In this document: positions 3,404 through 13,879 of the stretch, in pieces
Layout of the letters: each line of letters begins with the position of its first letter
Numbering within the stretch: position 1 is the first letter of the stretch
Source of the DNA: a virus
Reading direction: 5' to 3' (one strand)
DNA: 20,561 nucleotides
Virus record (IMG/VR): IMGVR_UViG_3300035698_023415
Coordinates: 1-20,561 of that record
The notes under the pieces: generated by a model
The model's input: only the letters and a program-made list of their open reading frames with translations
Told to the model about the DNA's origin: nothing
Databases searched by the model: none
Made by a program: the position numbers and the translations under genes

Positions 3404-3431
3404 GAAGCTAATAAAATATTTATTTTTTACC

Positions 3432-3543: not shown

Positions 3544-3618
3544 CTGCGGGTAGGCGAGTGGCAAGCCACACCGTTTGGGGCGGTGACGTCGGTGGTTCGA
3601 TCCCATCTCTGCAGACCA
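3544..3618 (+). tRNA. tRNA-Pro (TGG)
   Basis: All arms fold. Acceptor CTGCGGG pairs with TCTGCAG with two G-T pairs; the anticodon stem CACCG/CGGTG encloses TTTGGGG; the T-loop is TTCGATC; CCA is encoded. It is the first tRNA after the two promoter-like elements. Confidence 0.95.
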
Positions 3619-3622
3619 TTTT

Positions 3623-3716
3623 TGTACATGTGAGCGAAAATATCCCTCCTTTCTTTGGGAGTATTTATATAAATATTCTTTTTTTGCTGCTCCCAACTCA
3701 CATGTACATTTTTTTA
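3623..3716 (+). terminator. Large two-part stem with T-run; terminator or attenuator-like RNA
   Basis: TGTACATGTGAG (3623-3634) pairs perfectly with CTCACATGTACA (3697-3708), followed by seven Ts. TTGGGAG (3655-3661) pairs with CTCCCAA (3690-3696), directly extending the 3' side to 19 paired bases, with a 20-base bulge on the 5' side. The GGGAG strand could alternatively pair with ATCCC at 3642-3646, giving a competing hairpin. It lies between tRNA-Pro and a new promoter-like sequence. Confidence 0.6.
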
Positions 3717-3727
3717 AAAATAATCCT

Positions 3728-3756
3728 TTGTGGGTTAATGTAAAATATAGTATAAT
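3728..3756 (+). promoter_or_regulatory. Sigma-70-like promoter
   Basis: TTGTGG (3728-3733), a 17-base spacer and consensus TATAAT (3751-3756) lie just after the T-run of the preceding stem and 10 bases before tRNA-His. It would restart transcription of the array after partial termination. Confidence 0.55.
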
Positions 3757-3766
3757 GAAAACATAT

Positions 3767-3841
3767 GGGGATTGTAGTGTAATGGCAGCACGACAGTTTG
3801 TGAAGCTGTTTGAATGGGGTCAGAACCCATCATTCCTCCCA
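3767..3841 (+). tRNA. tRNA-His (GTG)
   Basis: The anticodon stem ACAGT/GCTGT encloses TTGTGAA. An extra 5' G at 3767 faces C73 before CCA, the G-1:C73 pair that identifies tRNA-His. The acceptor has one T-T mismatch. The T-loop GTCAGAA inside ATGGG/CCCAT departs from the usual TTCRA sequence. Confidence 0.9.
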
Positions 3842-3872
3842 AATTTAAATTGTGACAAAAAAAGGAGATAAT

Positions 3873-4340
3873 GTGAAAAAATTTATAATTAGTTTTTTAG
3901 TAGCAACATTAATGTTTTGCACTTTAGGCATTGAAGAATCGGCAGCACAAGTAACACCAGATGTTGACCCAATGTTAAATCCTGTTTATAGAGCAATTCC
4001 TATTGATGTAGGAGATTGGTTAGAAGCATTGCCTAATTTAAAACAAGGTGGCATGTATTCTGTTCCTGATAGTGTAATTAAATATATTTCAACTACAGTG
4101 TTAGTTGAAGAGCCATTTGAAGCAAAAGGATTAAATATAGAATTTGGAGTTGCTCCAAGTGATAATGAATTATTGTTAGGTGCTTCTTATGAAGTAATAA
4201 AACTTAGAGATTATTTTGACATCCCTATTTTAGATTTAATTGAGTTGAATGTAGGTTATACTTTAGGTGTTATAAATTTGCTTGAAGACAATGAATTTGA
4301 CCATGGACCATGGGTGACAGCTGTTAATGTTAAGTTCTAA
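3873..4340 (+). CDS. Exported protein, possible small outer-membrane beta-barrel
   Basis: I choose GTG 3873, preceded by AAGGAG at 5-base spacing; an in-frame GTG at 3852 has no such site. The 155-residue product begins with a signal peptide (KK, hydrophobic stretch to about residue 19, probable cleavage near SAAQ at 23-26). The mature part has alternating strands in its second half (IEFGVAPSDNELLLGASYEV, then LIELNVGYTLGVINLL) and ends in NVKF. A C-terminal aromatic residue after an alternating strand is a hallmark of outer-membrane barrels, although about 130 residues is small. It lies within the tRNA array and may modify the host envelope, for example in superinfection exclusion; that role is speculation. 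Confidence 0.75.
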   Translation: MKKFIISFLVATLMFCTLGIEESAAQVTPDVDPMLNPVYRAIPIDVGDWLEALPNLKQGGMYSVPDSVIKYISTTVLVEEPFEAKGLNIEFGVAPSDNELLLGASYEVIKLRDYFDIPILDLIELNVGYTLGVINLLEDNEFDHGPWVTAVNVKF

Positions 4341-4375
4341 CAAAGATAATCATTTATTTATACATAGAAAAATTG

Positions 4376-4495
4376 ATGATAAAAAAAAGAGTATCAAGTG
4401 TATATATGGCTTTTTATTTTTGGGTAAATGAGACATTACAATGTACTAAATATTGTTTGTCTGCAAAATTTGATAATAAAAAAAACAAGAAATAA
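4376..4495 (+). CDS. Possible small protein, 39 aa
   Basis: A 39-codon frame opens at ATG 4376, with an internal ATG at 4406. It contains WVNETLQCTKYCLSAKFD, with a CxxxC pair, and ends in a lysine-rich tail. No convincing ribosome binding site precedes either start. It fills an otherwise empty 181-base gap on the coding strand. Confidence 0.35.
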   Translation: MIKKRVSSVYMAFYFWVNETLQCTKYCLSAKFDNKKNKK

Positions 4496-4521
4496 AATTG
4501 TAATTTAAGTAGGAGAAAAAG

Positions 4522-4788
4522 ATGGGCAAGGAAATTAAAGTTGATAAGAAAAATGCTGAAATTGAAATTGAAAATTCTGAAAGATTTGGACCTTTTGTTA
4601 TTGCATCTGCAATATTTAAAGATAAAAATATTTCTAGAAAAAAAGGTTATGGTATTTCTAAGTGTTCAAGATTAGATAGATTTGATGCTAGACAGGGTTT
4701 TCCACGTGCCGAGGGTAGAGCTAAACAAGCTTTATTAAAGAAAGTCAAAAAAGGCAAATCTAAAATACATGAGATTTATTTAGGATGA
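4522..4788 (+). CDS. Hypothetical basic protein, 88 aa
   Basis: The ATG follows AGGAGAAAAAG. The first half is charged and strand-like; the second half has a basic region (KKGYGISKCSRLDRFDARQG) and a lysine-rich helix. I do not recognise a family. The basic C-terminal half could bind nucleic acid. It overlaps the next gene by four bases. Confidence 0.7.
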   Translation: MGKEIKVDKKNAEIEIENSERFGPFVIASAIFKDKNISRKKGYGISKCSRLDRFDARQGFPRAEGRAKQALLKKVKKGKSKIHEIYLG

Positions 4789-5006
4789 TTGAAGATAATT
4801 ATTTATACTATAGTGTTTTAACTAAAAAGATTGAAGATATTAAAAAGCTAAAAAAAAGAATAAAAGAATTAGAAAAACAATTAATGGCAACAGGAAGAAA
4901 AAAGTTTGTTCCAGATATACGTTTGGACTCAATAGCTTCCGAAAGTTGCCAAATAAATTTTCCTAACGAAATTTATACATTGGAAATAAAAAGTGGAACA
5001 TCTTAA
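4785..5006 (+). CDS. Hypothetical coiled-coil protein, 73 aa
   Basis: The start overlaps the upstream stop as ATGA. Residues 12-35 form a strongly charged amphipathic helix (KKIEDIKKLKKRIKELEKQL) typical of a short coiled coil, followed by a strand-rich tail with one Cys. It is coupled to the preceding gene and the pair probably act together; their function is unknown. Confidence 0.65.
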   Translation: MIEDNYLYYSVLTKKIEDIKKLKKRIKELEKQLMATGRKKFVPDIRLDSIASESCQINFPNEIYTLEIKSGTS

Positions 5007-5015
5007 GTAATATTC

Positions 5016-5090
5016 TGCACGATGGTATAATGGCATTATACTGGACTGTTAATCCATGTGATATAGGTTCGAATCCTATTCATGCAGCCA
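5016..5090 (+). tRNA. tRNA-Asn (GTT)
   Basis: The anticodon loop CTGTTAA sits in a TGGA/TCCA stem. The T-arm ATAGG/CCTAT has loop TTCGAAT. The acceptor TGCACGA/TCATGCA has one C-A mismatch. G73 and CCA are encoded, as expected for Asn. Confidence 0.95.
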
Positions 5091-5096
5091 ATAATC

Positions 5097-5309
5097 ATGA
5101 AGACTCAACAACAAAAAATAATTGAAGCTTTAGATTCTTGTGGATGTGAAAAAGGTGAAACTTATGTTTTTACTAAAGAAGATATTAAAACTATGGATAA
5201 AAGATATCAAGTTTTAGATAAATTTTTAAAAGTTAAACGTAAACACGAGAAGCAGTCTTTAAAAAATAAAACAGAATTTAAGTCTTTAGGAGAATATCAA
5301 TATGTTTGA
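5097..5309 (+). CDS. Hypothetical protein, 70 aa
   Basis: An in-frame ATG at 5082 lies inside tRNA-Asn, so I take ATG 5097, six bases after the tRNA CCA. There is no Shine-Dalgarno in the short gap, so once the tRNA is cut out the message would have almost no leader. The product is a charged, helical 70-residue protein with a CGC motif near residue 15. No family is recognised. Confidence 0.6.
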   Translation: MKTQQQKIIEALDSCGCEKGETYVFTKEDIKTMDKRYQVLDKFLKVKRKHEKQSLKNKTEFKSLGEYQYV

Positions 5310-5382
5310 TAGAATGGAAGAAATGAGAATTTTATTTGATAAAAATAGTGCAGATTTTGATGATAGAGGTGTACTTGTATGA
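5302..5382 (+). CDS. Small peptide, 26 aa
   Basis: ATG 5302 overlaps the preceding gene end by 8 bases and has TAGGAG eight to nine bases upstream. The acidic 26-residue product (FDRMEEMRILF then DFDDRG) has no recognised family. Its stop overlaps the next ATG. Confidence 0.45.
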   Translation: MFDRMEEMRILFDKNSADFDDRGVLV

Positions 5383-5438
5383 AACCTACACAAAGTGAAG
5401 GACCCCAAATTATGGAGGAAGAAACTAATACTAGATAA
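5379..5438 (+). CDS. Possible small peptide, 19 aa
   Basis: A 19-codon frame begins MKPTQSEG and overlaps the previous stop as ATGA. An 8-codon TTG frame about 17 bases later, behind GGTGGAG, also begins (M)KPT, suggesting a degenerate duplication. It is too short for a firm call. Confidence 0.3.
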   Translation: MKPTQSEGPQIMEEETNTR

Positions 5439-5488
5439 AAAAGGTGGAGCAAGTTGAAACCAACAGATGCAGGAAAATAAAAATATAA

Positions 5489-5565
5489 TGGACAATAACT
5501 CAAATGGTTAAGAGTGTCTGGTTGAAGCCCAGAAAGTCTAGGCTCGACACCTAGTTGTCCAACCA
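5489..5565 (+). tRNA. tRNA-Phe (GAA)
   Basis: The acceptor TGGACAA/TTGTCCA pairs fully. The anticodon stem TCTGG/CCAGA encloses TTGAAGC. The T-arm CTAGG/CCTAG has loop CTCGACA. A73 and CCA are encoded. Confidence 0.95.
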
Positions 5566-5591
5566 AGTAGACAAGAGCTTTATTTAAAATT

Positions 5592-5810
5592 ATGAAGAAA
5601 AAAGAAAATAATTTTTTAGGTAAAATGAAAGAAATTGTAAATAAAATATCTTTCAACCAAGAAGATCGTTCTTATAATCATAAAAGAATAGTTAGACCAA
5701 AATGTAGATTTTGTGGTAAAGATATTAGAGCATTGAATAACAATGGAATTATTGGTCCAGGTTATTGTGAATGGAATTATGTTTGTAAATCTTGTGGTAA
5801 AGTACAATAA
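5592..5810 (+). CDS. Zinc-ribbon protein, 72 aa
   Basis: This 72-residue protein has a basic N-terminal half and a C-terminal zinc ribbon: CRFCGKDI near residues 38-45 and CKSCGKV near 65-71, two CxxC knuckles about 24 residues apart. Such ribbons in small phage proteins usually bind nucleic acid or partner proteins. It lies between tRNA-Phe and tRNA-Leu(TAG). The specific function is unknown. Confidence 0.7.
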   Translation: MKKKENNFLGKMKEIVNKISFNQEDRSYNHKRIVRPKCRFCGKDIRALNNNGIIGPGYCEWNYVCKSCGKVQ

Positions 5811-5818
5811 AAAAATAT

Positions 5819-5903
5819 GCCTTTGTGGTGAAACTGGTAAACGCCCTTGCCTTAGAAGCAAGCACAGAAATGTTTGAAGGTTCGACTCCTTCCGAAGGCA
5901 CCA
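5819..5903 (+). tRNA. tRNA-Leu (TAG)
   Basis: Class II tRNA of 85 bases. The acceptor GCCTTTG/CGAAGGC pairs fully; the anticodon stem CTTGC/GCAAG encloses CTTAGAA; there is an extended variable arm; the T-arm is GAAGG/CCTTC; A73 and CCA are encoded. Confidence 0.95.
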
Positions 5904-5912
5904 AAATTAAAG

Positions 5913-5989
5913 GTCTCATTAGTGTCAACAGTTGAGCACGTTAGTTTTCCAAACTAACAGGGAGAGCGCAAGTCTCTCATGGGACTCCA
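5913..5989 (+). tRNA. tRNA-Gly (TCC)
   Basis: The anticodon loop TTTCCAA sits in TTAGT/ACTAA. The T-arm GAGAG/CTCTC has loop CGCAAGT, lacking the usual TTC start. The acceptor GTCTCAT/ATGGGAC pairs with one wobble; T73 and CCA follow, consistent with Gly. Confidence 0.93.
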
Positions 5990-6003
5990 AAAATGGGTTA
6001 AAT

Positions 6004-6085
6004 AGCCTTGTGGTGGAATTGGAATACACAGTAGGTTTAAGCCCTACTGCCTTCGGGATTGAGAGTTCAAATCTCTCCGAGGCTA
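6004..6085 (+). tRNA. tRNA-Leu (TAA), CCA not encoded
   Basis: The anticodon stem GTAGG/CCTAC encloses TTTAAGC. It has a class II variable arm and T-arm GAGAG/CTCTC with loop TTCAAAT. The acceptor AGCCTTG/CGAGGCT pairs with one wobble, then A73. The following bases are CTT, so CCA must be added after transcription, unlike most tRNAs here. Confidence 0.93.
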
Positions 6086-6136
6086 CTTTTTAATAACAAT
6101 ATAGTTGTTTAACAAGTAAGAAAGGAAAGGTATGAT

Positions 6137-6877
6137 ATGGGAAAGTTACATGAGGTATTAGCAGTAGAGGGTAGTTTAAAATCAACTAGTGATAAAATTT
6201 TAAAAGAAGCACATCACACATTTACTCAGAAAAGAGGTCATTTTTTAGGACAGCATAGAGAGTATGAAGTTTTGGTGGAAAATGGTCTTAAACTTGCTCC
6301 AGAGTCGAAAGAGATGGAGACAACAGTAAAAGAAAAGTTAGATTATGTTTCTGAAAATTTTAAGAATGCAATAGATTGTATTCTTCAAAAAGAAATAACT
6401 AACACAAAAGCTTCTGCTGATTTAGTTGTTAATGGTAAAATTTTAGCAAAGGGACTTCCTGCAACTTTTTTATTAACATTGGAAGGAAAGTTGAAAGATT
6501 TACGTTTAGTTTATGATGTTATCCCAACTTTGGATCCAGGTAAGGATTGGAAAAAAGATACAACTAGGGATAATGTTTATGTGTCATCAGATGCAACACA
6601 GCTTAAAACTCAGAAAGTTACTGAACCATTAGTATTGTATCCAGCTACTGAAAAGTTTCCAGCACAAGTTGATAAAATAACAATAGATAAAAATATTGGA
6701 CAATGGACAACTAAGAATTGGAGTGGAGCATTAACACCAACTGATAAATCAAAACTTTTAGGAAAACTTGATACTTTAATTCGTGAAGTCAAAAAAGCTA
6801 GATGTAGAGCTAATGAACAAGAAGTAGATAGTAGCTTGAAAATTTGTAGCAAGTTGATTGATTATATCAATGAATAA
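6137..6877 (+). CDS. DUF7873-like conserved phage protein, 246 aa
   Basis: This 246-residue soluble protein starts MGKLHEVLAVEGSLKSTSDK, has AHHTFTQKRGHFLGQHREYE at 25-44, a middle KASADLVVNGKILAKGLPATFLLTLEGKL, and an acidic or charged helical C-terminus with RANEQEVD. I recognise the overall layout (KLHE-LAVE start, F-GQHR motif, later LP-TFLL-LE) from a conserved family of unknown function seen in phages. There is no signal peptide or catalytic motif. A GAAAGGAAAGG site precedes the ATG. It is one of the longer, better conserved proteins inside the array, so it likely has a real infection-time role. Confidence 0.8.
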   Translation: MGKLHEVLAVEGSLKSTSDKILKEAHHTFTQKRGHFLGQHREYEVLVENGLKLAPESKEMETTVKEKLDYVSENFKNAIDCILQKEITNTKASADLVVNGKILAKGLPATFLLTLEGKLKDLRLVYDVIPTLDPGKDWKKDTTRDNVYVSSDATQLKTQKVTEPLVLYPATEKFPAQVDKITIDKNIGQWTTKNWSGALTPTDKSKLLGKLDTLIREVKKARCRANEQEVDSSLKICSKLIDYINE

Positions 6878-6883
6878 AATATA

Positions 6884-7015
6884 TGGGGTCTGAAAGGATT
6901 GAAACATCCAAGTAGGATTCCACCAATTGTGACAAACTTAAACTGAAACTTAGGATGCTACTTACGCCATGCGCTGAGCAAGTACTGTGAAATTAAAATT
7001 AAACTTATTGTCACA
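6884..7015 (+). other. Structured noncoding segment, first part of 480-base gap
   Basis: No reading frame is convincing here. GGAT/ATCC hairpins lie near 6896-6919. TGTGACAA (6928-6935) pairs perfectly with TTGTCACA (7008-7015), enclosing TACTT/AAGTA (6959-6963, 6980-6984) and a small CGC/GCG hairpin. The heptamer AAACTTA occurs at 6934, 6946, 7001, 7017 and 7146. The fold suggests a structured RNA; I cannot name a family. Confidence 0.45.
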
Positions 7016-7063
7016 CAAACTTATTAAAAAATGGTACATAATGTCTTGTAGTTGTTTAGAAGA

Positions 7064-7145
7064 GAAAGACGGTGTGGGTTCAAATCCCGCTCGAGCCTCC
7101 AAAAAAATCAATGGCTCGATAGCTTAATGGTAGAGTAGCTTTTTT
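7064..7145 (+). tRNA. Permuted tRNA-like gene: 3' half precedes 5' half; anticodon unclear
   Basis: Bases 7064-7101 are a tRNA 3' half: GAAAG, variable ACGGT, T-arm GTGGG-TTCAAAT-CCCGC, acceptor strand TCGAGCC, T73, CCA. After an 11-base linker, 7113-7145 is a 5' half: acceptor GGCTCGA, perfect 7-base complement of TCGAGCC, then TA, D-arm GCTT-AATGGTA-GAGT, and CTTTT, which can pair with GAAAG. No other matching 5' half or 3' half is visible nearby. The anticodon cannot be read because the joint lies in the anticodon loop. It may be a working permuted tRNA or a relic of tandem duplication. Confidence 0.6.
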
Positions 7146-7174
7146 AAACTTAAAAAATGACTTACATAATTTAT

Positions 7175-7217
7175 GAGACTAAATTCATATCGAATTAGAT
7201 ACAGAGACATAGTTCTC
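7175..7217 (+). other. Small fold after tRNA 5' half, weakly group I intron-like
   Basis: GAGACTA (7175-7181) pairs with TAGTTCTC (7210-7217) with one bulged T, and a hairpin (TATC/GATA or AATTC/GAATT) lies between. This resembles the P7/P8 part of a group I intron, but the partner elements P3 to P6 are not evident, so the resemblance may be chance. Confidence 0.25.
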
Positions 7218-7282
7218 TAGTAGAAAATGACATAAGAAACGGATTGTAGTGGTGGGCATAATCACTATAATTCATTCAAATG

Positions 7283-7327
7283 TTGGGGCAGGGAAGAGTG
7301 AAAATAATTTCATTCTTCCCACCTCAA
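7283..7327 (+). other. Long hairpin before small zinc protein
   Basis: TTGGGG/CCTCAA (7283-7288, 7322-7327) and GGGAAGAGTG/CATTCTTCCC (7291-7300, 7311-7320) stack with a small internal loop, about 16 pairs around a 10-base loop. CCA follows but no T-run, so it is neither a standard terminator nor a T-arm. It could be a processing or stability element. Confidence 0.5.
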
Positions 7328-7357
7328 CCATAAAATTTAATAAGAAAGTATTTTATA

Positions 7358-7516
7358 ATGAAAGCGAAAATCACTAAAAAATGTAGTAGATGTGATGGAA
7401 CAGGAATAATTACTAAAACAAACATACATCTAGGATATGAAACTTCTTTTGCTTGTAAGAAATGTTTTGGAACAGGAACAATTAAAGAATTAGTTGAAAT
7501 TGAAATCGAAGAATAA
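7358..7516 (+). CDS. DnaJ-type zinc finger peptide, 52 aa
   Basis: The 52-residue product carries two CxxCxGxG repeats, CSRCDGTG (9-16) and CKKCFGTG (33-40), the signature of the DnaJ central zinc-binding region. The tail is acidic (ELVEIEIEE). No J-domain is present. In DnaJ these repeats bind two zinc ions and help substrate binding; in small phage proteins they probably serve binding or folding. The ATG follows an AAGAAAG site. It lies just after the structured gap and before a homing endonuclease gene. Confidence 0.7.
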   Translation: MKAKITKKCSRCDGTGIITKTNIHLGYETSFACKKCFGTGTIKELVEIEIEE

Positions 7517-7532
7517 AAATTATTAAAATTTT

Positions 7533-8159
7533 ATGAAGAAAAAACGAACACCTTGGAATAAAAATAGAAAAACAGGACAAATACCAGCGAAACCTTTTAA
7601 AAAAGGTAATGTTCCTTGGAATAAAGGATTACCTTGTAGTGAAGAAACAAAAAGGAAAATAAGAAAAACTTTAAAAAGTAATCCAAATATTACAGGTAAA
7701 GCTTCTACACCAGAAAAAGAAATAGAGCGTAGATTAAAAATTTCTAAAAAAATGAAAAAGGTTGGTGGTGGCTATAGGAAAGGTTCTGGTAGAGGTAGGA
7801 AAGGTTGGTATAAAGATTATTGGTGTGATTCATCTTGGGAATTAGCTTTTGTGATATATTGTGTAGATTATAATATACCAATAGAAAGAAATACAAAAAT
7901 TTTCCCATATACTTATAATAATAAAATTTATAAATATATTCCAGATTTTGTTAGATTAGATAGGAAAAATTATTATATTGAAGTTAAAGGATATTTTACT
8001 GAACAAGTAAAAGAAAAGGTAAAACAATTTCCATATAAATTGAAAATTTTTTGTGGTAATGGAATGAAAAAATATTTAAATTATGTTATTAAAAAATATG
8101 GTAAAGATTTTATAAAATTATATAAGGAGAAATTGACCCCAGTGGGCTGCGGGGACTAA
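7533..8159 (+). CDS. Homing endonuclease: NUMOD3 motif plus PD-(D/E)xK nuclease
   Basis: This 208-residue protein has a basic N-terminus with a NUMOD3-type DNA-binding motif (NVPWNKGLPCSEETKRKIRK, about 26-45). A nuclease fold follows, with W-E at 102-103, IPDF with D138, and YIEVKG with E150 and K152: the E, D, ExK residues of a PD-(D/E)xK site. Such proteins are free-standing homing endonucleases of phages that cut alleles lacking the gene. The last 11 codons lie inside tRNA-Ser(TGA): the stop is 34 bases into the tRNA gene. This suggests insertion right against, or partly derived from, the tRNA. The N-terminal motif assignment is by resemblance. Confidence 0.85.
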   Translation: MKKKRTPWNKNRKTGQIPAKPFKKGNVPWNKGLPCSEETKRKIRKTLKSNPNITGKASTPEKEIERRLKISKKMKKVGGGYRKGSGRGRKGWYKDYWCDSSWELAFVIYCVDYNIPIERNTKIFPYTYNNKIYKYIPDFVRLDRKNYYIEVKGYFTEQVKEKVKQFPYKLKIFCGNGMKKYLNYVIKKYGKDFIKLYKEKLTPVGCGD

Positions 8160-8219
8160 TCTTGAAAATTAGCGAACATTAATAGTGTTTTGTTGGTTCG
8201 AATCCAGCTTTCTCCGCCA
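8126..8219 (+). tRNA. tRNA-Ser (TGA)
   Basis: Class II tRNA of 94 bases. The acceptor GGAGAAA/TTTCTCC pairs perfectly; the anticodon stem CTAAT/ATTAG encloses CTTGAAA; it has a long variable arm, G73 and CCA. Its first 34 bases also encode the end of the homing endonuclease. Confidence 0.95.
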
Positions 8220-8238
8220 AAATTAGAAAGATTAAGAT

Positions 8239-8430
8239 ATGACAAGCTCTAATATTATAATTAATGAAAGTTTAGAAACAGAAAAATTAAACATTGAGTT
8301 TGATGGAGCTGAAGGTGGAAGAGTTTGGTTTATGGATAAAAATAGTGATGAGTGGGTTTGGATTAGAGCAGATGAAATTCCTAAAGTTATTAAATTTTTA
8401 AAGCAATTTGATAAAATTATTAAAAAATAA
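8239..8430 (+). CDS. Hypothetical acidic protein, 63 aa
   Basis: The ATG follows AGAAAGATTAAG, 19 bases after tRNA-Ser. The product is a 63-residue acidic protein with several W residues and strand-rich centre (GRVWFMDKNSDEWVWIRADE) and a C-terminal lysine helix. I do not recognise a family. It might be a small single-domain beta fold. Confidence 0.65.
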   Translation: MTSSNIIINESLETEKLNIEFDGAEGGRVWFMDKNSDEWVWIRADEIPKVIKFLKQFDKIIKK

Positions 8431-8441
8431 GTTAATTATAG

Positions 8442-8515
8442 TGCCTTATAGTTCAACGATAGAACCTTCGGCTGATGACCGAATGATGAAAGTTTAATTC
8501 TTTCTGAGGCTACCA
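8442..8515 (+). tRNA. tRNA-Ile (GAT)
   Basis: The anticodon stem TTCGG/CCGAA encloses CTGATGA. The D-arm is GTTC/GAAC and T-arm GAAAG/CTTTC. The acceptor TGCCTTA/TGAGGCT has an unpaired T1-T72 and six other pairs; A73 and CCA are encoded. Confidence 0.92.
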
Positions 8516-8534
8516 AAATTTTTATAATAATTAT

Positions 8535-8609
8535 ACTTGTGTAGCCAAACAGTAAGGCAACAGTTTTACATACTGAGGACTGAGGGTGCAATTCCTTCCA
8601 CAAGTACCA
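8535..8609 (+). tRNA. tRNA-Val (TAC)
   Basis: The acceptor ACTTGTG/CACAAGT pairs perfectly. The anticodon loop TTTACAT sits in a four-pair stem (CAGT/ACTG). The T-arm is GAGGG/CCTTC with loop TGCAATT. A73 and CCA are encoded. Confidence 0.92.
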
Positions 8610-8636
8610 AAAATATTATTTTATAGGAGTTGTGAT

Positions 8637-8909
8637 TTGGGAAAGTCGTATAAAAAACATTCTTATTCTGGAATTGCTTTTGGTTCTGAAAAAAAAGACA
8701 AGAGATTAGCAAATAGAAAATTAAGAAAATCGGTTAATCAAAAATTAAAATATTTTACAGAAGAAACCATATTACCAGTTATGAGAGAAGTTAGCGATGT
8801 GTGGTCAATGAATAAAGATGGAAAATTATATCATAATAAACAAGATTTGATAGATAGATTTGGTGAAGTAGATGCTGAACGATATTGGAGAGAGATAGTA
8901 GGTAAATAA
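8637..8909 (+). CDS. Hypothetical basic protein, 90 aa
   Basis: I choose TTG 8637, with AGGAG seven bases upstream. A longer in-frame version starting at 8586 would begin inside tRNA-Val. The product is a lysine- and arginine-rich N-terminal half (GKSYKKHSYSG, then KKDKRLANRKLRKSVNQK) and a mixed C-terminal half ending in a W-containing helix. Charge suggests nucleic-acid or ribosome contact, but no family is recognised. Confidence 0.65.
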   Translation: MGKSYKKHSYSGIAFGSEKKDKRLANRKLRKSVNQKLKYFTEETILPVMREVSDVWSMNKDGKLYHNKQDLIDRFGEVDAERYWREIVGK

Positions 8910-8922
8910 TATTTAAACATAA

Positions 8923-8998
8923 GCCCTATTAGTATAAAGGCACATTATGTCTGTTTTGTAATCAGATGATGAGGGTTCGATTCCTTCATGGGGCTCCA
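8923..8998 (+). tRNA. tRNA-Thr (TGT)
   Basis: The acceptor GCCCTAT/ATGGGGC pairs fully with one wobble. The anticodon loop TTTGTAA sits in TCTGT/TCAGA, where the innermost pair is T-T. The T-arm is GAGGG/CCTTC with TTCGATT. T73 is unusual for Thr. CCA is encoded. Confidence 0.9.
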
Positions 8999-9007
8999 AA
9001 AATATAC

Positions 9008-9081
9008 AGAGGTTTGGTGTAATGGCAACACAAGTGCCTCCAAAACACTTGATGTGGGTTCGATTCCTACATCCTCTGCCA
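9008..9081 (+). tRNA. tRNA-Trp (CCA)
   Basis: The anticodon loop CTCCAAA sits in AGTGC/ACACT with one mismatch. The acceptor AGAGGTT/ATCCTCT has one T-T mismatch. G73, the Trp discriminator, and CCA are encoded. T-arm loop TTCGATT. Confidence 0.9.
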
Positions 9082-9106
9082 AAATAAAGAAAAGGAGCAT
9101 ATAATA

Positions 9107-9250
9107 ATGCCTAATAGAGACAGAACAGGACCTGATGGATTAGGACCTAGAAGTTTGAATTGTCCATTTAATCCAAATCCAAGACGTAGAAATCTTAGAA
9201 ATAGAATTGCTGATAGACCTCGTTCTTTAAGAAACAGAAGAGCAGATTAA
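9107..9250 (+). CDS. Small arginine-rich MPNRDR peptide, copy 1
   Basis: Behind AAAAGGAGCATATAATA, this 47-residue peptide starts MPNRDRTGPDGLGPRSLNCP and continues in an arginine-rich tail. The first 24 or so residues match a second gene at 10729. The MPxxDxTGPxGxGP start recalls small proteins of the DUF5320 type. The basic tail suggests RNA or DNA binding; function unknown. Confidence 0.7.
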   Translation: MPNRDRTGPDGLGPRSLNCPFNPNPRRRNLRNRIADRPRSLRNRRAD

Positions 9251-9253
9251 ATT

Positions 9254-9361
9254 ATGGGATTAAAAGAGTTTAGAAGAAGTAAAGACAAAAATCCAACTTA
9301 TAGTTGTTCAAATTGTAAGTGTAAAAGATATTCTCCTTGTGGATGTATAAAGAAAAAATAA
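9254..9361 (+). CDS. Small Cys-rich peptide, 35 aa
   Basis: Starts three bases after the preceding stop. The product has CSNCKCKR and then CGC in its C-terminal half, five cysteines in 14 residues, likely a zinc-binding knuckle, and a basic KKK end. It directly precedes tRNA-Ser(GCT). No family recognised. Confidence 0.5.
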   Translation: MGLKEFRRSKDKNPTYSCSNCKCKRYSPCGCIKKK

Positions 9362-9363
9362 AT

Positions 9364-9455
9364 GGAAGAGTGGCAGAGTCAGGCTTATCGCACTGGTTTG
9401 CTAAACCAGCGAAGTAGAAATACTTCCCAAGGTTCAAATCCTTGCTCCTCTGCCA
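9364..9455 (+). tRNA. tRNA-Ser (GCT)
   Basis: Class II, 92 bases. The anticodon stem CTGGT/ACCAG encloses TTGCTAA; it has a long variable arm; T-arm CAAGG/CCTTG with TTCAAAT. The acceptor has one A-C mismatch. G73 and CCA are encoded. Confidence 0.94.
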
Positions 9456-9461
9456 AAATAT

Positions 9462-9532
9462 TGACCTATAGGACAATGGTAGTCCAGTCGGCTCATAACC
9501 GAACTATCTAGGTCCGATTCCTGGTGGGTCAA
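9462..9532 (+). tRNA. tRNA (CAT): elongator Met or Ile2, CCA not encoded
   Basis: The acceptor TGACCTA/TGGGTCA, D-arm GGAC/GTCC, anticodon loop CTCATAA and T-arm CTAGG/CCTGG all fold; A73 is followed by CTT, so CCA is not encoded. Position 1-72 is paired, unlike the initiator-like CAT gene at 12931. ATA codons are common in these genes, so this could be a lysidine-modified Ile tRNA reading ATA. Confidence 0.9.
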
Positions 9533-9537
9533 CTTTT

Positions 9538-9900
9538 ATGAATATAAATATTAAGAATAAATGTAAAAAATTAAAGTTGTCTGATTTAAAATTTAATCAA
9601 TACGATACTACAAGAATTCAAATGTTAATAGAGATTATGGAATTTTGGGATTTGATGAGAGAAAAATATAATGTTAAATTTGATAATTTTTATAAAAACA
9701 TCATAACTTATGATAGTATCAAAGCAGTTGGTATAAATAATCCAGTTATTTTAGAAAAATTAGACAATGGGATTTATGAAATAATAAGAGGAAGAAATAG
9801 AATTGCTTGTGCTATTAAATTAGAACATGAAAATATTTATGTTTTAATTAAAGGTGAATCAAGTGAAGGTTTATTGATGCAATTTAAAAATATAATATGA
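9538..9900 (+). CDS. ParB-like domain protein, 120 aa
   Basis: The ATG lies five bases after the tRNA end, without a Shine-Dalgarno. The C-terminal half has the ParB N-terminal domain pattern: GINNPVILEKLDNGIYEI, then IRGRNRIACAIKL, then IYVLIKG, about residues 65-106. In ParB and related nucleases the GxxR segment contacts nucleotide. It is only 120 aa and has no DNA-binding HTH region, so it is a single-domain protein rather than a partition protein. It overlaps the next gene as ATGA. Confidence 0.7.
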   Translation: MNINIKNKCKKLKLSDLKFNQYDTTRIQMLIEIMEFWDLMREKYNVKFDNFYKNIITYDSIKAVGINNPVILEKLDNGIYEIIRGRNRIACAIKLEHENIYVLIKGESSEGLLMQFKNII

Positions 9901-10040
9901 AAAAAAATATTGAAAAAATAATTTATGATGTTTTACAAACAAGACCTTTTTCTAAAGAATGCATTAAAGAAAAAGATATATATTCAGCTTATTGTTTAAG
10001 AGTTGCAGAAACAGTTGATATGAAATTAAATGAAGAGTAA
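9897..10040 (+). CDS. Hypothetical protein, 47 aa
   Basis: Coupled to the ParB-like gene by an ATGA overlap. The 47-residue, helical and charged product has two Cys (EC and YC) and no recognised motif. The partnership with the ParB-like protein is implied only by the overlap. Confidence 0.55.
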   Translation: MKKNIEKIIYDVLQTRPFSKECIKEKDIYSAYCLRVAETVDMKLNEE

Positions 10041-10060
10041 TTTAGTTATAACTAAAATAT

Positions 10061-10137
10061 GGTAATGTAGCATAACTGGTCAATGCACTACCCTGTCAAG
10101 GTAGATTATGAGGATTCGACTTCCTCCGTTATCGCCA
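10061..10137 (+). tRNA. tRNA-Asp (GTC)
   Basis: The anticodon stem CTACC/GGTAG encloses CTGTCAA. The acceptor GGTAATG/CGTTATC pairs with two wobbles. The T-arm is GAGGA/TCCTC-like with TTCGACT. G73, as expected for Asp, and CCA are encoded. Confidence 0.94.
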
Positions 10138-10142
10138 ATTTT

Positions 10143-10217
10143 GTCTGTATAGTGTAGTGGTTAGCACGTTAGGTTTTCAGCCTAAAGTCACAGGTTCGAA
10201 TCCTGTTATGGATACCA
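10143..10217 (+). tRNA. tRNA-Glu (TTC)
   Basis: The anticodon stem TTAGG/CCTAA encloses TTTTCAG. The T-arm ACAGG/CCTGT has TTCGAAT. The acceptor GTCTGTA/TATGGAT pairs with three wobbles, unusually weak. A73 and CCA are encoded. It starts only five bases after tRNA-Asp. Confidence 0.93.
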
Positions 10218-10235
10218 GATAGACAGGAGTTTTAT

Positions 10236-10310
10236 ATCCCTTTAGTTCAATGGACAGAACACAGAGCTACGAACTCTGAGACGAAGGTTCAAATCCTTCT
10301 TGGGGTTCCA
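10236..10310 (+). tRNA. tRNA-Arg (ACG)
   Basis: The anticodon stem CAGAG/CTCTG encloses CTACGAA. D-arm GTTC/GAAC and T-arm GAAGG/CCTTC fold well. The acceptor ATCCCTT/TTGGGGT has two T-T mismatches at its inner end. T73 and CCA follow. A34 would need host TadA to become inosine. Confidence 0.9.
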
Positions 10311-10329
10311 AATTTGAAAGGAGCATAAT

Positions 10330-10485
10330 ATGAGTTTAGCTAGTTGTCCACATTGTTGGGACGATTTATGTTGCTGTGGTTATGAATATAGAAATTGGAC
10401 TGTTGAACAATTAAAAGAACAAATAAAAATGTTACAGGAAGTTTTAAAAGGAACAAATCAATATTGTAAGAAAGAGCCATTATGA
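10330..10485 (+). CDS. Small Cys-rich protein, 51 aa
   Basis: A GAAAGGAGCATAAT site precedes the ATG. The 51-residue product has CPHC at 6-9 and a CCC run at 14-16, a likely zinc-binding head, followed by an amphipathic helix (VEQLKEQIKMLQEVLK). It overlaps the next gene as ATGA, so the pair are probably co-translated. Family not recognised. Confidence 0.6.
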   Translation: MSLASCPHCWDDLCCCGYEYRNWTVEQLKEQIKMLQEVLKGTNQYCKKEPL

Positions 10486-10724
10486 AAAAAGAATATTCTG
10501 TAGATGATTTAGAAATGCAATTAGATGAATTGTTAGACAATAATATGTTTGTAAAAATTAATTGTCCTGTTGTAGATGAAAGTAAGAAAAAAAGATATTT
10601 GCAAGTAGCTATATCTTTATGTAAAGTAGTTAATATTGAATATATAAAACTGACAGATTTAGCAAATGCAAGTAACAATAAAAAAGAATTAAGAAAAATA
10701 GTTAAAAAATTAAAGGAAGAATAA
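10482..10724 (+). CDS. Hypothetical protein, 80 aa
   Basis: An 80-residue acidic-to-basic helical protein, MKKEYSVDDLEMQLDELLDN at the start, a central CPVVDESKKKRYLQVAISLC and a lysine-rich end. No motif is recognised. It is coupled to the Cys-rich gene upstream and followed by the second MPNRDR peptide. Confidence 0.65.
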   Translation: MKKEYSVDDLEMQLDELLDNNMFVKINCPVVDESKKKRYLQVAISLCKVVNIEYIKLTDLANASNNKKELRKIVKKLKEE

Positions 10725-10728
10725 AAAA

Positions 10729-10908
10729 ATGCCAAATAGAGACAGAAGAGGACCTGATGGATTAGGACCATTAGGATTAAATTGTCCAGTAAATCCAGGA
10801 AAACCTGCAAGAACAGTAAGCCCAGCAAGACCAAGAAGATCGGCTCCTGTTGGACCTGGACGTGGAAGAGGAATAAACAGATTAATAAATAGAAATAGAA
10901 CTAAATAA
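10729..10908 (+). CDS. Small arginine-rich MPNRDR peptide, copy 2
   Basis: A 59-residue paralogue of the peptide at 9107: MPNRDRRGPDGLGPLGLNCP against MPNRDRTGPDGLGPRSLNCP, then a proline-, glycine- and arginine-rich tail that differs. AAGGAAG lies before the ATG. Retention of two diverged copies in one array suggests a shared conserved N-terminal function and variable basic tails. Confidence 0.7.
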   Translation: MPNRDRRGPDGLGPLGLNCPVNPGKPARTVSPARPRRSAPVGPGRGRGINRLINRNRTK

Positions 10909-10931
10909 TTTTAAAAAATAGGAAAAACAAA

Positions 10932-10994
10932 ATGTTAACAAGGCGAAGACAAAAACACAAACCTAAACATTCTGGCGATAGGTCAGGAATGTAA
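10932..10994 (+). CDS. Possible basic peptide, 20 aa
   Basis: A 20-codon frame (MLTRRRQKHKPKHSGDRSGM) follows the MPNRDR gene behind a weak AGGA. The strongly basic content echoes its neighbour. It is too short to be sure it is translated. Confidence 0.3.
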   Translation: MLTRRRQKHKPKHSGDRSGM

Positions 10995-11014
10995 CAATAG
11001 GGGGTGTTAAACTA

Positions 11015-11698
11015 TTGATAGTTTTAGAATGTAGATATTGCAGACAGTCTTTCGATGGTTATAATCCAGGTTGTAAATCAACCCATACTAAATATTGTAA
11101 ACAAAATCCAAATTATGAATTTAATTTGAATAGTTGCATCAATCAATTTTCTAAAGCTAGATTAGAAGGAAGAGTAGTACCAATATCTAAAATCAAAGGT
11201 ATGAAGGGAAGAGTAGGAGGAAAAGCTTCAACTGTTGAGAAAGAATTAAAACGTAGAGATGCAATATCTAAATGGCGACAAAAATTTTTAAAAAATAATC
11301 GAAATAAACATAACTGGTCTTTGTATAGAAATAAAGAAAGTAAACCAGAGGAAAAATTCAGATTATTTCTTGACATTAGAAATATAAAGTATGCTCAGTA
11401 CTATATACCTGAAAATAGCAAAAGAAATTTTGAGATTGATTTTTCTTTAGTTGATTTAAAAATAGGTTTTGAAGTAAATGGAAATCAGCATTATAAAAAA
11501 AATGGTGATTTAAAAGAATATTATGATAAAAGAAATAAGTATTTGAACTCTATAGGTTGGACAATAATAGAAGTTTATTATTTATTTTGTTTTAAAGAAA
11601 ATATATTAAAAGAGATATTTGAAAATGGATTACAAAAAAACACTCTGTATAGTGAAAATAAAACGAAGATATTTTTTAAAGAAAAATTTTCTTCTTAA
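11015..11698 (+). CDS. Homing endonuclease of the Vsr/EDxHD type
   Basis: I choose TTG 11015 because AGGGGGTG lies about eight bases upstream. The 227-residue protein opens with a CRYC...C...C zinc finger-like head (6-28) and a basic linker. The nuclease domain follows: PEEKF (E113), FEIDF (D142), FEVNGNQHY (H159) and YYDKRNKYL (D171), matching the E, D, H, D order of Vsr-like phage homing endonucleases, then GWTIIEV. Such enzymes cut a target allele so their gene spreads. It sits just before tRNA-Arg(TCT), as the first endonuclease sits against tRNA-Ser. Start assignment is the main uncertainty. Confidence 0.85.
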   Translation: MIVLECRYCRQSFDGYNPGCKSTHTKYCKQNPNYEFNLNSCINQFSKARLEGRVVPISKIKGMKGRVGGKASTVEKELKRRDAISKWRQKFLKNNRNKHNWSLYRNKESKPEEKFRLFLDIRNIKYAQYYIPENSKRNFEIDFSLVDLKIGFEVNGNQHYKKNGDLKEYYDKRNKYLNSIGWTIIEVYYLFCFKENILKEIFENGLQKNTLYSENKTKIFFKEKFSS

Positions 11699-11704
11699 TT
11701 TTTT

Positions 11705-11779
11705 AGGGGTGTAACTTAATGGATAAAGTAATAGTTTTCTAAACTATAAATGTTGGTTCAATTCCAGCCATCCCTACCA
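11705..11779 (+). tRNA. tRNA-Arg (TCT)
   Basis: The anticodon stem ATAGT/ACTAT encloses TTTCTAA. The acceptor AGGGGTG/CATCCCT pairs with one wobble. T-loop TTCAATT. A73 and CCA are encoded. It reads AGA, the dominant Arg codon in these genes. Confidence 0.95.
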
Positions 11780-11784
11780 ATTTT

Positions 11785-11860
11785 TGATTGGTAGTTCAAT
11801 GGCTAGAACAATGGACCTTTAATCCATGAGATGAGAGTTCGAATCTCTCCCAATCAACCA
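11785..11860 (+). tRNA. tRNA-Lys (TTT)
   Basis: The acceptor TGATTGG/CCAATCA is perfect; the anticodon stem ATGGA/TCCAT encloses CCTTTAA; the T-arm GAGAG/CTCTC has TTCGAAT. A73 and CCA are encoded. It starts five bases after tRNA-Arg(TCT). Confidence 0.96.
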
Positions 11861-11875
11861 CATAGAAAGAGTATT

Positions 11876-12124
11876 ATGAATAGCGTGATAGAAGAAATTT
11901 TAGGTTGTTTTGAAGTTAATGGAAAAGAATATAATATAGTTGTAACTCCAGGAAATGAAAAAGGTAAATGTAAATTATACATTGCCGATGTTAAAACTAC
12001 TGCACTTGTTAATCCATATAATATTAATTTAATTATAGAAGAAAAGTTAGAAACACATTATTTAGCAAGAGCAAAAGTGAAATTATTAAGAAAATTAAAA
12101 AGTTATTTAGGAAAATTAAAATGA
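11876..12124 (+). CDS. Hypothetical protein, 82 aa
   Basis: The start is ATG 11876, with AAAGAG four bases upstream; earlier in-frame starts fall in tRNA-Lys. The product has a strand-rich middle (CFEVNGKEYNIVVTPGNEKG) and a helical, lysine-rich end. No family is recognised. It overlaps the next small frame as ATGA. Confidence 0.65.
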   Translation: MNSVIEEILGCFEVNGKEYNIVVTPGNEKGKCKLYIADVKTTALVNPYNINLIIEEKLETHYLARAKVKLLRKLKSYLGKLK

Positions 12125-12207
12125 AAATGATACAGAGTTTACAAGAAAAATCACAATTGGCAGAAGATAAGAATGTTATTTTGTTTTCTGGTTATTATAG
12201 TCGCTAA
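12121..12207 (+). CDS. Small hypothetical peptide, 28 aa
   Basis: A 28-codon frame coupled to the previous gene by an ATGA overlap and ending six bases before tRNA-Tyr. The product is MKMIQSLQEKSQLAEDKNVI plus a short hydrophobic/aromatic tail. No motif is visible. Confidence 0.45.
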   Translation: MKMIQSLQEKSQLAEDKNVILFSGYYSR

Positions 12208-12212
12208 CCTTC

Positions 12213-12297
12213 GGGTGTGTGACAGAGTAGTAATGTGCCAGTCTGTAAAACTGTAGCTGGGTCGCCCTCGGAAGTGCAAATCTTCCCGCACCCACCA
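12213..12297 (+). tRNA. tRNA-Tyr (GTA)
   Basis: Class II. The acceptor GGGTGTG/CGCACCC pairs with one wobble. The anticodon stem CAGT/ACTG encloses CTGTAAA. It has an extended variable arm, T-arm loop TGCAAAT, A73 and CCA. Confidence 0.94.
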
Positions 12298-12320
12298 AAT
12301 TTATTGGAAAGGAACTTATT

Positions 12321-12713
12321 GTGGAAAAATTATTTACTTATTTATTAAGTATTTTATTGTTTTTTAATTGTGCTAGTATGGTATTTGCTGGTAATGAAAT
12401 GGCAACAGATAGTTATAGTTTTACAGTTATAACATTATCTCAAGCTGACCAAGAACCTCCACGAATCATAGCACGAAGTCCAACCCCAAATCAAATAGGT
12501 GTAGGTAGATTAGAAAGTTTAGTATATCAATTAACCGATAATTTAGCTGGAGTGAATTGGACTACTATTGATATGAAAATAAATGGTATATCTGTAACAA
12601 CAAATAAAAGTGGTACTCCACTTGATACAACTGTTACTTATACTCCTGTGACACCTTTTGTATATGGAGAATATGTATATGTCACACTTGATGCAGAAGA
12701 TTTGGCAGATTAG
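12321..12713 (+). CDS. Exported Ig-like domain protein, 130 aa
   Basis: GTG start behind GGAAAGGAAC. Residues 1-23 form a signal peptide ending SMVFA. The mature part has an Ig-like fold layout: PPRIIARSPTPNQIGVGRLE, VYQLTDNLAGVNWTTIDMKI, then YTPVTPFVYGEYVYVTLDAE. Related repeats normally finish near DxAGN and continue; here the protein stops at DLAD, so it is one repeat, possibly cut short. Ig-like domains in phage proteins usually help attachment to carbohydrate. Here a signal peptide sends it to the periplasm or surface. It overlaps the next gene in another frame by 35 bases. Confidence 0.75.
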   Translation: MEKLFTYLLSILLFFNCASMVFAGNEMATDSYSFTVITLSQADQEPPRIIARSPTPNQIGVGRLESLVYQLTDNLAGVNWTTIDMKINGISVTTNKSGTPLDTTVTYTPVTPFVYGEYVYVTLDAEDLAD

Positions 12714-12840
12714 TATTATATTGGTTATTTGTTTTTCGTTGTCTAGCTGTACTTGGTTTAAACCAAAACCAGATCCACCTATAAATACTAATTTAGAGTT
12801 ACATGACGAAATGAAATACCAAATAGAATTGGAAAATTAA
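12679..12840 (+). CDS. Small lipoprotein, possible outer-membrane spanin-like
   Basis: I choose ATG 12679, nine bases after GGAG; ATG 12691 is an alternative. The product has a short K-containing start, a hydrophobic segment ISIILVICFSLSSC with lipobox LSSC, then a short proline-rich mature tail (TWFKPKPDPPINTN) and a charged end. Small Pro-rich lipoproteins overlapping another gene out of frame recall Rz1-type outer spanins, which disrupt the outer membrane at lysis. No inner spanin partner is recognised here, so this role is tentative. The lipobox itself supports a diderm host. Confidence 0.65.
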   Translation: MSHLMQKIWQISIILVICFSLSSCTWFKPKPDPPINTNLELHDEMKYQIELEN

Positions 12841-12849
12841 TAAATAAAT

Positions 12850-12923
12850 TGGGATATGGTGTAGAGATAGCACGTTAGATTTTGAATCTAAAAGCTATGG
12901 TTTGATTCCATGTATCTCAGCCA
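12850..12923 (+). tRNA. tRNA-Gln (TTG)
   Basis: The anticodon stem TTAGA/TCTAA encloses TTTTGAA. The acceptor TGGGATA/TATCTCA pairs with one wobble. T-arm loop TTTGATT. G73, as expected for Gln, and CCA are encoded. Confidence 0.93.
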
Positions 12924-12930
12924 ACTTTAT

Positions 12931-13007
12931 TGCGGGTTCGACTGGAGGCGGTTCCAGCCAAGTCTCATAAGCTTAGTAGATGAGTTCGATTCTCATACCC
13001 GCTACCA
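12931..13007 (+). tRNA. tRNA-Met (CAT), initiator-like
   Basis: The anticodon loop is CTCATAA. The acceptor TGCGGGT/ACCCGCT leaves T1-T72 unpaired above GCGGG/CCCGC, matching the C1-A72 mismatch and GCGGG acceptor of bacterial initiator tRNA-fMet; length 77 is also the same. The anticodon stem CAAGT/GCTTA lacks the three G-C pairs of initiators. A73 and CCA are encoded. Confidence 0.88.
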
Positions 13008-13051
13008 TAAATTAATTATAAATAAATAACAGTAAACAAAGGAGAGTATTG

Positions 13052-13456
13052 ATGATAAGATATTTTATGTTATTAGTGATTTTAAGTATGTTTTTTTGCA
13101 GTTCTAATGTATATGCTTGTAATAAATGTGTAGATGGCAAAGATGGAGCAGATGGTTATACTCCAATTAAAAATGTAGATTATTTTGATGGCAAAGATGG
13201 ACAGAATATCAAAGGTGACAAGGGTAACATTGGATTAGATGGCAAAGCTGGTATTGATGGACAAGATTTTTATAAAAATAATGAAGTTGGAGTAGGAATT
13301 GATTTAATTTTATATGAATATGGAGATGATGTTGGAAATTTAAAAGATGTAACTTGGTTGAAAGAATTAAATGTTGAATATAGATGCGATGGAAATAATG
13401 GAAAACCTAATCATAAAGTTTATTTTATAAGTAGAATTAAACTTTGGAATAAATAA
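13052..13456 (+). CDS. Exported collagen-like protein, 134 aa
   Basis: ATG 13052 has GGAG seven bases upstream (TTG 13049 is possible). A signal peptide (MIRYFMLLVILSMFFCSSNVYA) is followed by CNKCVDGKDGADGYTPIKNV and further G-x-y collagen-like triplets (KGDKGNIGLDGKAGIDG). The C-terminal part is strand-rich (VGVGIDLILYEYGDD, then VYFISRIKLW). Collagen repeats are common in phage tail fibres, but a signal peptide implies export from the host cell. Similar signal-collagen-strand proteins occur in phages. It might assemble as a trimer at the cell surface; that is inference. Confidence 0.75.
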   Translation: MIRYFMLLVILSMFFCSSNVYACNKCVDGKDGADGYTPIKNVDYFDGKDGQNIKGDKGNIGLDGKAGIDGQDFYKNNEVGVGIDLILYEYGDDVGNLKDVTWLKELNVEYRCDGNNGKPNHKVYFISRIKLWNK

Positions 13457-13463
13457 AATAATT

Positions 13464-13496
13464 AGTTGCAATAAAATGCCAGTAGGTATTGTAACT
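13464..13496 (+). other. Hairpin after collagen-like gene
   Basis: AGTTGCAATA (13464-13473) and TATTGTAACT (13487-13496) pair over ten positions with one G-T around a 13-base loop. No strong T-run follows; it may stabilise the mRNA end. Bases 13500-13568 show no gene. Confidence 0.4.
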
Positions 13497-13568
13497 TAAA
13501 AAAAATAATGATAAAAATGTGACCATGAATAGCACAGAGTATATAACGAAGGCAGAATTTTAAAATAA

Positions 13569-13642
13569 GGCTATATGGCAGAGTGGCTATGCATCGGATT
13601 GCAAACCCGATAACACTGGTTCGATTCCAGTTCTAGTCTCCA
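13569..13642 (+). tRNA. tRNA-Cys (GCA)
   Basis: The anticodon loop TTGCAAA sits in TCGGA/CCCGA (one mismatch). The acceptor GGCTATA/TCTAGTC has one mismatch. The T-arm is CTGG/CCAG-based with TTCGATT. T73, the Cys discriminator, and CCA are encoded. Confidence 0.92.
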
Positions 13643-13798
13643 ATGAAGAAATTAAAAATTTGTCATAATATATTTTTGATAAAAATAAGATTTTGGTTTT
13701 GTAATCTATTTCATGGAAAACTTTCTTATAATATAGATGATGATTATAAAACTTATTATTGCAAGAAATGTAAACAAACATATTTTATACCAAGATAA
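13643..13798 (+). CDS. Zinc-ribbon-like small protein, 51 aa, starting at the tRNA-Cys 3' end
   Basis: The ATG is the very next base after the tRNA CCA, with no leader at all after tRNA release. The 51-residue product is basic and hydrophobic in its first half and carries YYCKKCKQTYF at 38-48, a CxxC knuckle (C40, C43); a more distant pair could come from C8 and C20. No family recognised. Translation before tRNA cleavage would have to use the tRNA sequence as leader. Confidence 0.5.
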   Translation: MKKLKICHNIFLIKIRFWFCNLFHGKLSYNIDDDYKTYYCKKCKQTYFIPR

Positions 13799-13801
13799 TA
13801 T

Positions 13802-13879
13802 GGGGTCGCATGTACCAAGGCAAGGCGACAGACATTTGCAATGTCCGTGAGGTGAGTTCGATTCCCACCGATTCCACCA
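13802..13879 (+). tRNA. tRNA-Ala (TGC)
   Basis: The anticodon loop TTTGCAA sits in a GACA/TGTC stem. The acceptor GGGGTCG/CGATTCC contains G3-T70, the alanine identity pair. A73 and CCA are encoded. T-loop TTCGATT. It is the last tRNA, just before the terminator. Confidence 0.95.

Follow-up and report, generated by a model that had tools for sequence, protein, structure and literature searches.

A complete tRNA array in a viral genome fragment

The window analysed here is a 20,561-nucleotide stretch of viral DNA (IMG/VR record IMGVR_UViG_3300035698_023415, positions 1 to 20,561), and all totals of transfer RNA (tRNA) genes given below apply to this 20.6 kb fragment rather than to a whole genome. 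It carries 24 tRNA genes, interspersed with about 15 small open reading frames (ORFs), which form a complete phage tRNA array of the known T5 type, in which each amino acid has at least one tRNA (20/20) and an initiator is included. The total comprises 21 tRNAs called by ARAGORN, every one on the plus strand between 3544 and 13642, a tRNA-Tyr contributed by Rfam and missed by ARAGORN, and two tRNAs built by hand from the sequence. A preliminary description, made from the letters of this DNA, had claimed 24 tRNAs with anticodons for all amino acids and extra isoacceptors for Leu, Ser, Arg and CAT. Both claims are borne out, with Leu UAG/UAA, Ser UGA/GCU, Arg ACG/UCU and two CAU tRNAs in a set that mostly holds one tRNA per codon box.

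Along the plus strand (Rfam scores in brackets), the array opens with tRNA-Pro(UGG) (3544-3618; 45.0 bits), tRNA-His(GUG) (3768-3841; 46.1), tRNA-Asn(GUU) (5016-5090; 56.3), tRNA-Phe(GAA) (5489-5565; 56.9), tRNA-Leu(UAG) (5819-5903; 53.0), tRNA-Gly(UCC) (5913-5989; 41.8) and tRNA-Leu(UAA) (6004-6086; 51.1). These are followed by tRNA-Ser(UGA) (8126-8219; 28.6), tRNA-Ile(GAU) (8442-8515; 57.2), tRNA-Val(UAC) (8535-8609; 57.5), tRNA-Thr(UGU) (8923-8998; 53.5), tRNA-Trp(CCA) (9008-9081; 56.0), tRNA-Ser(GCU) (9364-9455; 39.4), a tRNA(CAU) that is either elongator Met or Ile2 (9462-9533; 54.3), tRNA-Asp(GUC) (10061-10137; 62.1), tRNA-Glu(UUC) (10143-10217; 66.2) and tRNA-Arg(ACG) (10236-10310; 54.7). 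The last part holds tRNA-Arg(UCU) (11705-11779; 68.3), tRNA-Lys(UUU) (11785-11860; 67.8), tRNA-Tyr(GUA) (12213-12297; 51.8), tRNA-Gln(UUG) (12850-12923; 59.0), an initiator-like tRNA(CAU) (12931-13007), tRNA-Cys(GCA) (13569-13642; 52.7) and tRNA-Ala(UGC) (13802-13879). The CCA end is not encoded in tRNA-Leu(UAA) and the tRNA(CAU) at 9462, which would need CCA addition. The preliminary description had called for a covariance check; RF00005 alone gave 21 matches, 20 of them over the gathering score, with tRNA-Ser(UGA) just below it (28.6 against a cut-off of 29). Since 20/21 matches exceed this score, the covariance results exclude wholesale pseudogenes.

The initiator-like tRNA and tRNA-Ala were missed by both ARAGORN and RF00005. 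Rfam sees them only as weak transfer-messenger RNA (tmRNA) matches, the tRNA and tmRNA families belonging to one clan; that of tRNA-Ala scores 17.8 bits (E 6.6e-4). A tmRNA at 12934 or 13802 was rejected, the RF00023 scores being 17.8 and 12.3 bits (cut-off 47) and each match being one tRNA-sized piece. tRNA-Ala has the acceptor GGGGTCG/CGATTCC with G3·U70, the alanine identity pair, together with the loop TTTGCAA, an ACCA end and a degenerate D arm. Stop-codon reassignment was also set aside: translation table 11 leaves the ORFs open, and ARAGORN called no suppressor tRNA.

The array lies between terS and terL

The array is bordered on the left by a terS-like gene (2040-2948, plus strand; 33-49% identity) and on the right by a terL-like gene (14880-16463, plus strand; 41-52% identity to relatives). 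TerL and portal searches identified six relatives in IMG/VR, while no TerL relative was found in the annotated phage collection or in the species genomes searched. Five of the relatives show both genes, and in each case terS and terL lie next to each other. In the window they are 11.9 kb apart, and the interval holds the 24 tRNAs, the small ORFs, two endonuclease-like ORFs and a permuted tRNA-like element. The insert of about 11.9 kb is thus specific to this phage in comparison with the five relatives. The relatives carry 0-2 tRNAs, with none in one of 89.8 kb. Because they lack the insert and have so few tRNAs, the array was either gained or moved in the lineage of the window, or lost from the others.

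An initiator-like tRNA without the three G:C pairs

Two features mark initiator tRNAs, a 1:72 mismatch and an anticodon stem with three G:C pairs (3GC); 3GC shows high conservation across all domains of life, and G2:C71 and C3:G70 have a role in formylation (PMC7949028). The initiator-like tRNA of the window has the acceptor TGCGGGT/ACCCGCT, with T1·T72, G2:C71, C3:G70 and G4:C69, the loop CTCATAA and an ACCA end. The unpaired T1·T72 pointed out in the preliminary description therefore stands, and the start of the gene is corrected to 12931. The 3GC pairs are absent: positions 29:41, 30:40 and 31:39 are A:U, G:C and U·G (stem AGT/GCT). The annotated T5 tRNA-fMet has the same acceptor and the same AGT-CTCATAA-GCT arm, and likewise lacks 3GC; identity is 71% to this tRNA and 59% to E. 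coli metZ. Processed identically, E. coli metZ gave C1·A72 and GGG/CCC. It shares the 1:72 mismatch, G2:C71, C3:G70 and the CTCATAA loop with the window tRNA, and differs from it in the anticodon stem.

BLAST matches of the initiator are biased towards its anticodon arm, and the survey of viral contigs was therefore done on a set chosen by a pattern that fixes the acceptor and loop and leaves the anticodon stem free. This sample covers one acceptor type, its counts ignore relatedness, and we infer the initiator function of its members. A GGG/CCC stem occurred in 1 of 102 distinct pattern matches and in none of 54 distinct ARAGORN-called viral CAU tRNAs with a 1:72 mismatch, 28 of which have U·G at 31:39 (all counts among the matches listed). 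The window initiator is unusual, yet typical of the viral initiators sampled. No description of 3GC-less phage initiators was found in the open literature, subscription journals lying outside this coverage.

VapC toxins cut tRNA-fMet between the anticodon stem and loop (PMC8522696), and since the cut falls at this border, the altered 31:39 pair could matter. Moreover, 3GC-mutant initiators are reported to be functional in E. coli when the host initiator genes are deleted (PMC7949028), which fits a use after host tRNA depletion. We tentatively suggest, as a proposal on the doubtful side, that unrelated phages encode an initiator class of their own, which keeps the 1:72 mismatch and the formylation determinants and has dropped 3GC; after depletion of host tRNA-fMet, such tRNAs would initiate on phage mRNAs, and they would resist VapC-type nucleases.

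Codon coverage of the set

With superwobble, the 24 tRNAs can read 59 of the 61 codons, the exceptions being CGG and AUA. The 191 Arg codons include neither CGG, which no tRNA of the set could read, nor CGC, for which reading would depend on inosine. AUA accounts for 175 of 383 Ile codons and would be read if the tRNA(CAU) at 9462 is a lysidine-modified Ile2. This tRNA has C4:G69, C5:G68 and C29:G41, which we take to be features of E. coli Ile2 and treat as a lead rather than a test. The set is complete for amino acids; for codons its completeness is not proven.

The phage DNA has 29% GC and its codon use is strongly A/T-ending, which could suggest that the tRNAs serve codons used more by an AT-rich phage than by its host, and tRNAs with U34 indeed suit A/G-ending codons. 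Such codon compensation would not, however, require the set that is found, with one tRNA per box, G34 tRNAs for C/U-ending boxes, and tRNAs for Trp, Met and initiation, and we consider it an unlikely explanation of the array. The absence of any weighting towards frequent codons favours instead a set that replaces the host pool.

A proposed role: replacement tRNAs against host tRNA depletion

Our preferred reading, to which we give a probability of about 0.6, is that this T5-type complete array was acquired or moved between terS and terL and provides replacement tRNAs against host tRNA depletion. Several lines of evidence lead to it: the 59/61 readable codons, with the unreadable CGG unused; the initiator with T1·T72 and the T5-like anticodon arm; and an architecture that is that of T5, combined with the finding that phage tRNAs, including T5 tRNA-Tyr, overcome tRNA-cutting defence and rescue infection (PMC11555353). 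Since the relatives live with 0-2 tRNAs and five lack the insert, the array appears to be added equipment. The role proposed in the preliminary description, independence from host tRNAs, for example when these are degraded, fits both this evidence and the T5 precedent.

In such a mechanism, the array tRNAs would be transcribed, processed and charged by host enzymes, and would stand in for the host's elongator tRNAs and, at least in part, for its initiation function. The trigger would be the loss of host tRNAs, either cleaved by defence nucleases or destroyed along with the host genome. The permuted element may act as a decoy for nuclease or processing enzymes, and a GGQ factor encoded upstream of the array (1468-1806, plus strand; 112 aa, RF-1 domain, Pfam PF00472, E 2e-20; PHROG 3122) may help rescue ribosomes stalled by cut tRNAs. 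This release or rescue factor is without a codon-recognition domain and is a possible ribosome-rescue factor.

Some points weigh against replacement. The genome is a fragment, the activity of the tRNAs is predicted from their genes, and the opposing defence nuclease is hypothetical. The D arms of tRNA-Ala and the initiator are poor or degenerate, and both genes escape standard gene finders. In addition, AUA is covered only if the tRNA(CAU) at 9462 is Ile2, in which case elongator Met is missing.

The array also holds two endonuclease-like ORFs, both with weak profile matches: one at 7533-8159 (plus strand; PHROG endonuclease families, E 4e-9), a possible free-standing homing endonuclease whose 3' end is overlapped by tRNA-Ser(UGA), and a DUF559 ORF at 11015-11698 (plus strand; Pfam PF04480, E 8.9e-5). 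In T6, a homing endonuclease mobilises and amplifies tRNA segments, for countering tRNA-cutting defence (PMC13096335). Together with the degenerate D arms, this could indicate that tRNAs and endonuclease ORFs gathered in a tolerated hotspot through homing or recombination, several of the tRNAs decaying and few of them mattering. We regard such accretion as improbable, somewhat more so than codon compensation, given that 20/20 amino acids are represented with duplicates almost absent. Furthermore, identity elements are retained in both of the degenerate tRNAs (G3·U70 in tRNA-Ala; T1·T72, G2:C71 and C3:G70 in the initiator), which suggests that these elements are under selection, and replacement remains the reading that we favour.

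A probable permuted tRNA mimic within the array

An element at 7046-7170 (plus strand) has the parts of a tRNA in permuted order: T arm (7074-7090), 3' acceptor TCGAGCC, linker, 5' acceptor GGCTCGA and D arm. All 7 of its 7 acceptor pairs form, and an outer helix of 11 bp encloses it (p 0.011 when the flanks are shuffled; z -2.63 for the whole fold). This T arm/acceptor/D arm order closed by an outer helix is that of YrlA RNAs (RF02553), which are likewise permuted tRNA modules within an outer helix. Because its Rfam score is 26 bits (E 0.002), below the gathering cut-off of 69, we describe the element as YrlA-like without assigning it to the family. It further differs from YrlA in its long acceptor linker and in that no Ro/Rsr gene is seen beside it: profile scans of most ORFs named no Rsr-like protein in the window, itself a genome fragment.

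Of 50 array contigs, 15 contain weak YrlA matches (20-35 bits), and some of these are probably tRNA junctions; being common in tRNA arrays, such matches are not trustworthy alone. A direct module search over 1,527 T arms found 11 modules in 10 records, compared with 1 in a control with rotated acceptor, and none of the 11 overlaps a called tRNA. Circularly permuted tRNA modules therefore recur in phage tRNA arrays. The low YrlA score, the frequency of such matches and a TCCA that follows the 3' acceptor in tRNA fashion could also be explained if the element were what is left of one tRNA once present as a tandem pair, or a join made by chance. Against this, which we hold possible but the weaker account, stand the complete acceptor pairing, the outer helix, the excess of modules over the control, and a search for a tandem-tRNA partner of the element that found none. 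The element is thus probably a tRNA mimic with Y-RNA (YrlA) topology. It has been suggested that the tRNA-like domain of YrlA might competitively inhibit a tRNA nuclease (PMC7790460), and such inhibition by the element might suit a role against tRNA depletion.

Other identities were rejected. An orthodox permuted tRNA would bear an anticodon, and the open end of the element has no 7-nt loop. T5 RNA1 and RNA2 were discarded as its kin: YrlA matched neither of them, and RNA1 is tRNA-like without being permuted. A mycobacteriophage BLAST match proved to be the junction of two ordinary tRNAs with unpaired acceptors; mycobacteriophage Y RNAs have been reported, as cited in PMC12282133. Elsewhere, a 100.9 kb viral contig (L029) has YrlA-like elements at 2116-2223 and 8498-8607, with four tRNAs in 9.5 kb. 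In Gordonia phage Boopy (L056), a 52-bit YrlA match at 4692-4791 lies over an annotated tRNA-Leu and adjoins a Ro-like protein gene, and this annotation is possibly a misannotated Y RNA.

Other features of the window and its relatives

Upstream of the array, two 36-nt repeats with TTTACT-16-TATTAT (3366-3467, plus strand) are possible tandem promoters. tRNA-Pro is followed by a 12-bp inverted repeat, TGTACATGTGAG/CTCACATGTACA, and then a T-run (3623-3708, plus strand), which resembles a terminator or processing site. The small ORFs at 9107-9250 and 10729-10908 are paralogous (about 81% DNA identity over 94 nt), a duplication within the array, and the first of them is weakly DUF5320-like. A 22-nt inverted repeat (14084-14105/14682-14703, 91% complementary) flanks an ORF at 14131-14676. 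Two 38-nt direct repeats (TTATTTTACATAACTT...GTTACAA) lie at 1874-1959, upstream of the terS-like gene, and the portal-like protein (16575-18590) has a ChaB domain at residues 573-626. In one relative (L013), about 1.2 kb interrupts terL, with residues 1-91 encoded at 4059-4331 and 90-524 at 5493-6803, an arrangement suggestive of an intron or another kind of insertion; in another (L012), only the second part of terL is seen.

Significance and comparison with known systems

The kind of array is known and well described; its further features here are a lineage-specific location between terS and terL, an initiator that is 3GC-less like the viral ones sampled, and the probable tRNA mimic. This case adds a complete, non-redundant set, inserted in the packaging region of a phage lineage for which no relative was found in the annotated phage collection, and it speaks for full sets having arisen time and again as a safeguard against the loss of tRNAs. 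The viral initiators without 3GC raise two testable questions: whether initiation needs 3GC in the absence of the host initiator tRNA, and whether phages have lost it as a way of evading nucleases.

The preliminary description had judged a full set rare even for large phages. Such sets are indeed rare, but they recur. Of the 129 viral loci retrieved, among the matches listed, because they carry an initiator of this kind, five have a tRNA for every one of the 20 amino acids in a span of 15 kb. XacN1 carries 56 tRNAs for 20 amino acids (PMC5852040), and both it and Gordonia phage Boopy have near-complete or complete sets, as does the window. Boopy further encodes a tmRNA and a Ro-like protein, neither of which is seen in the window fragment, and its YrlA match lies inside the array, as does the weaker match of the window. 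The closest plan is that of T5, an unrelated phage whose tRNA region (AY543070, 28-37 kb) encodes tRNAs for nearly all amino acids, including Ile2 and a T1·T72 initiator. Small ORFs and tRNA-like RNAs (stable RNAs in T5) lie between the tRNAs in both, along with HNH endonucleases in T5 and the two endonuclease-like ORFs in the window; RNA1 of T5 is unpermuted and the window element permuted, and the array of the window is placed between terS and terL.

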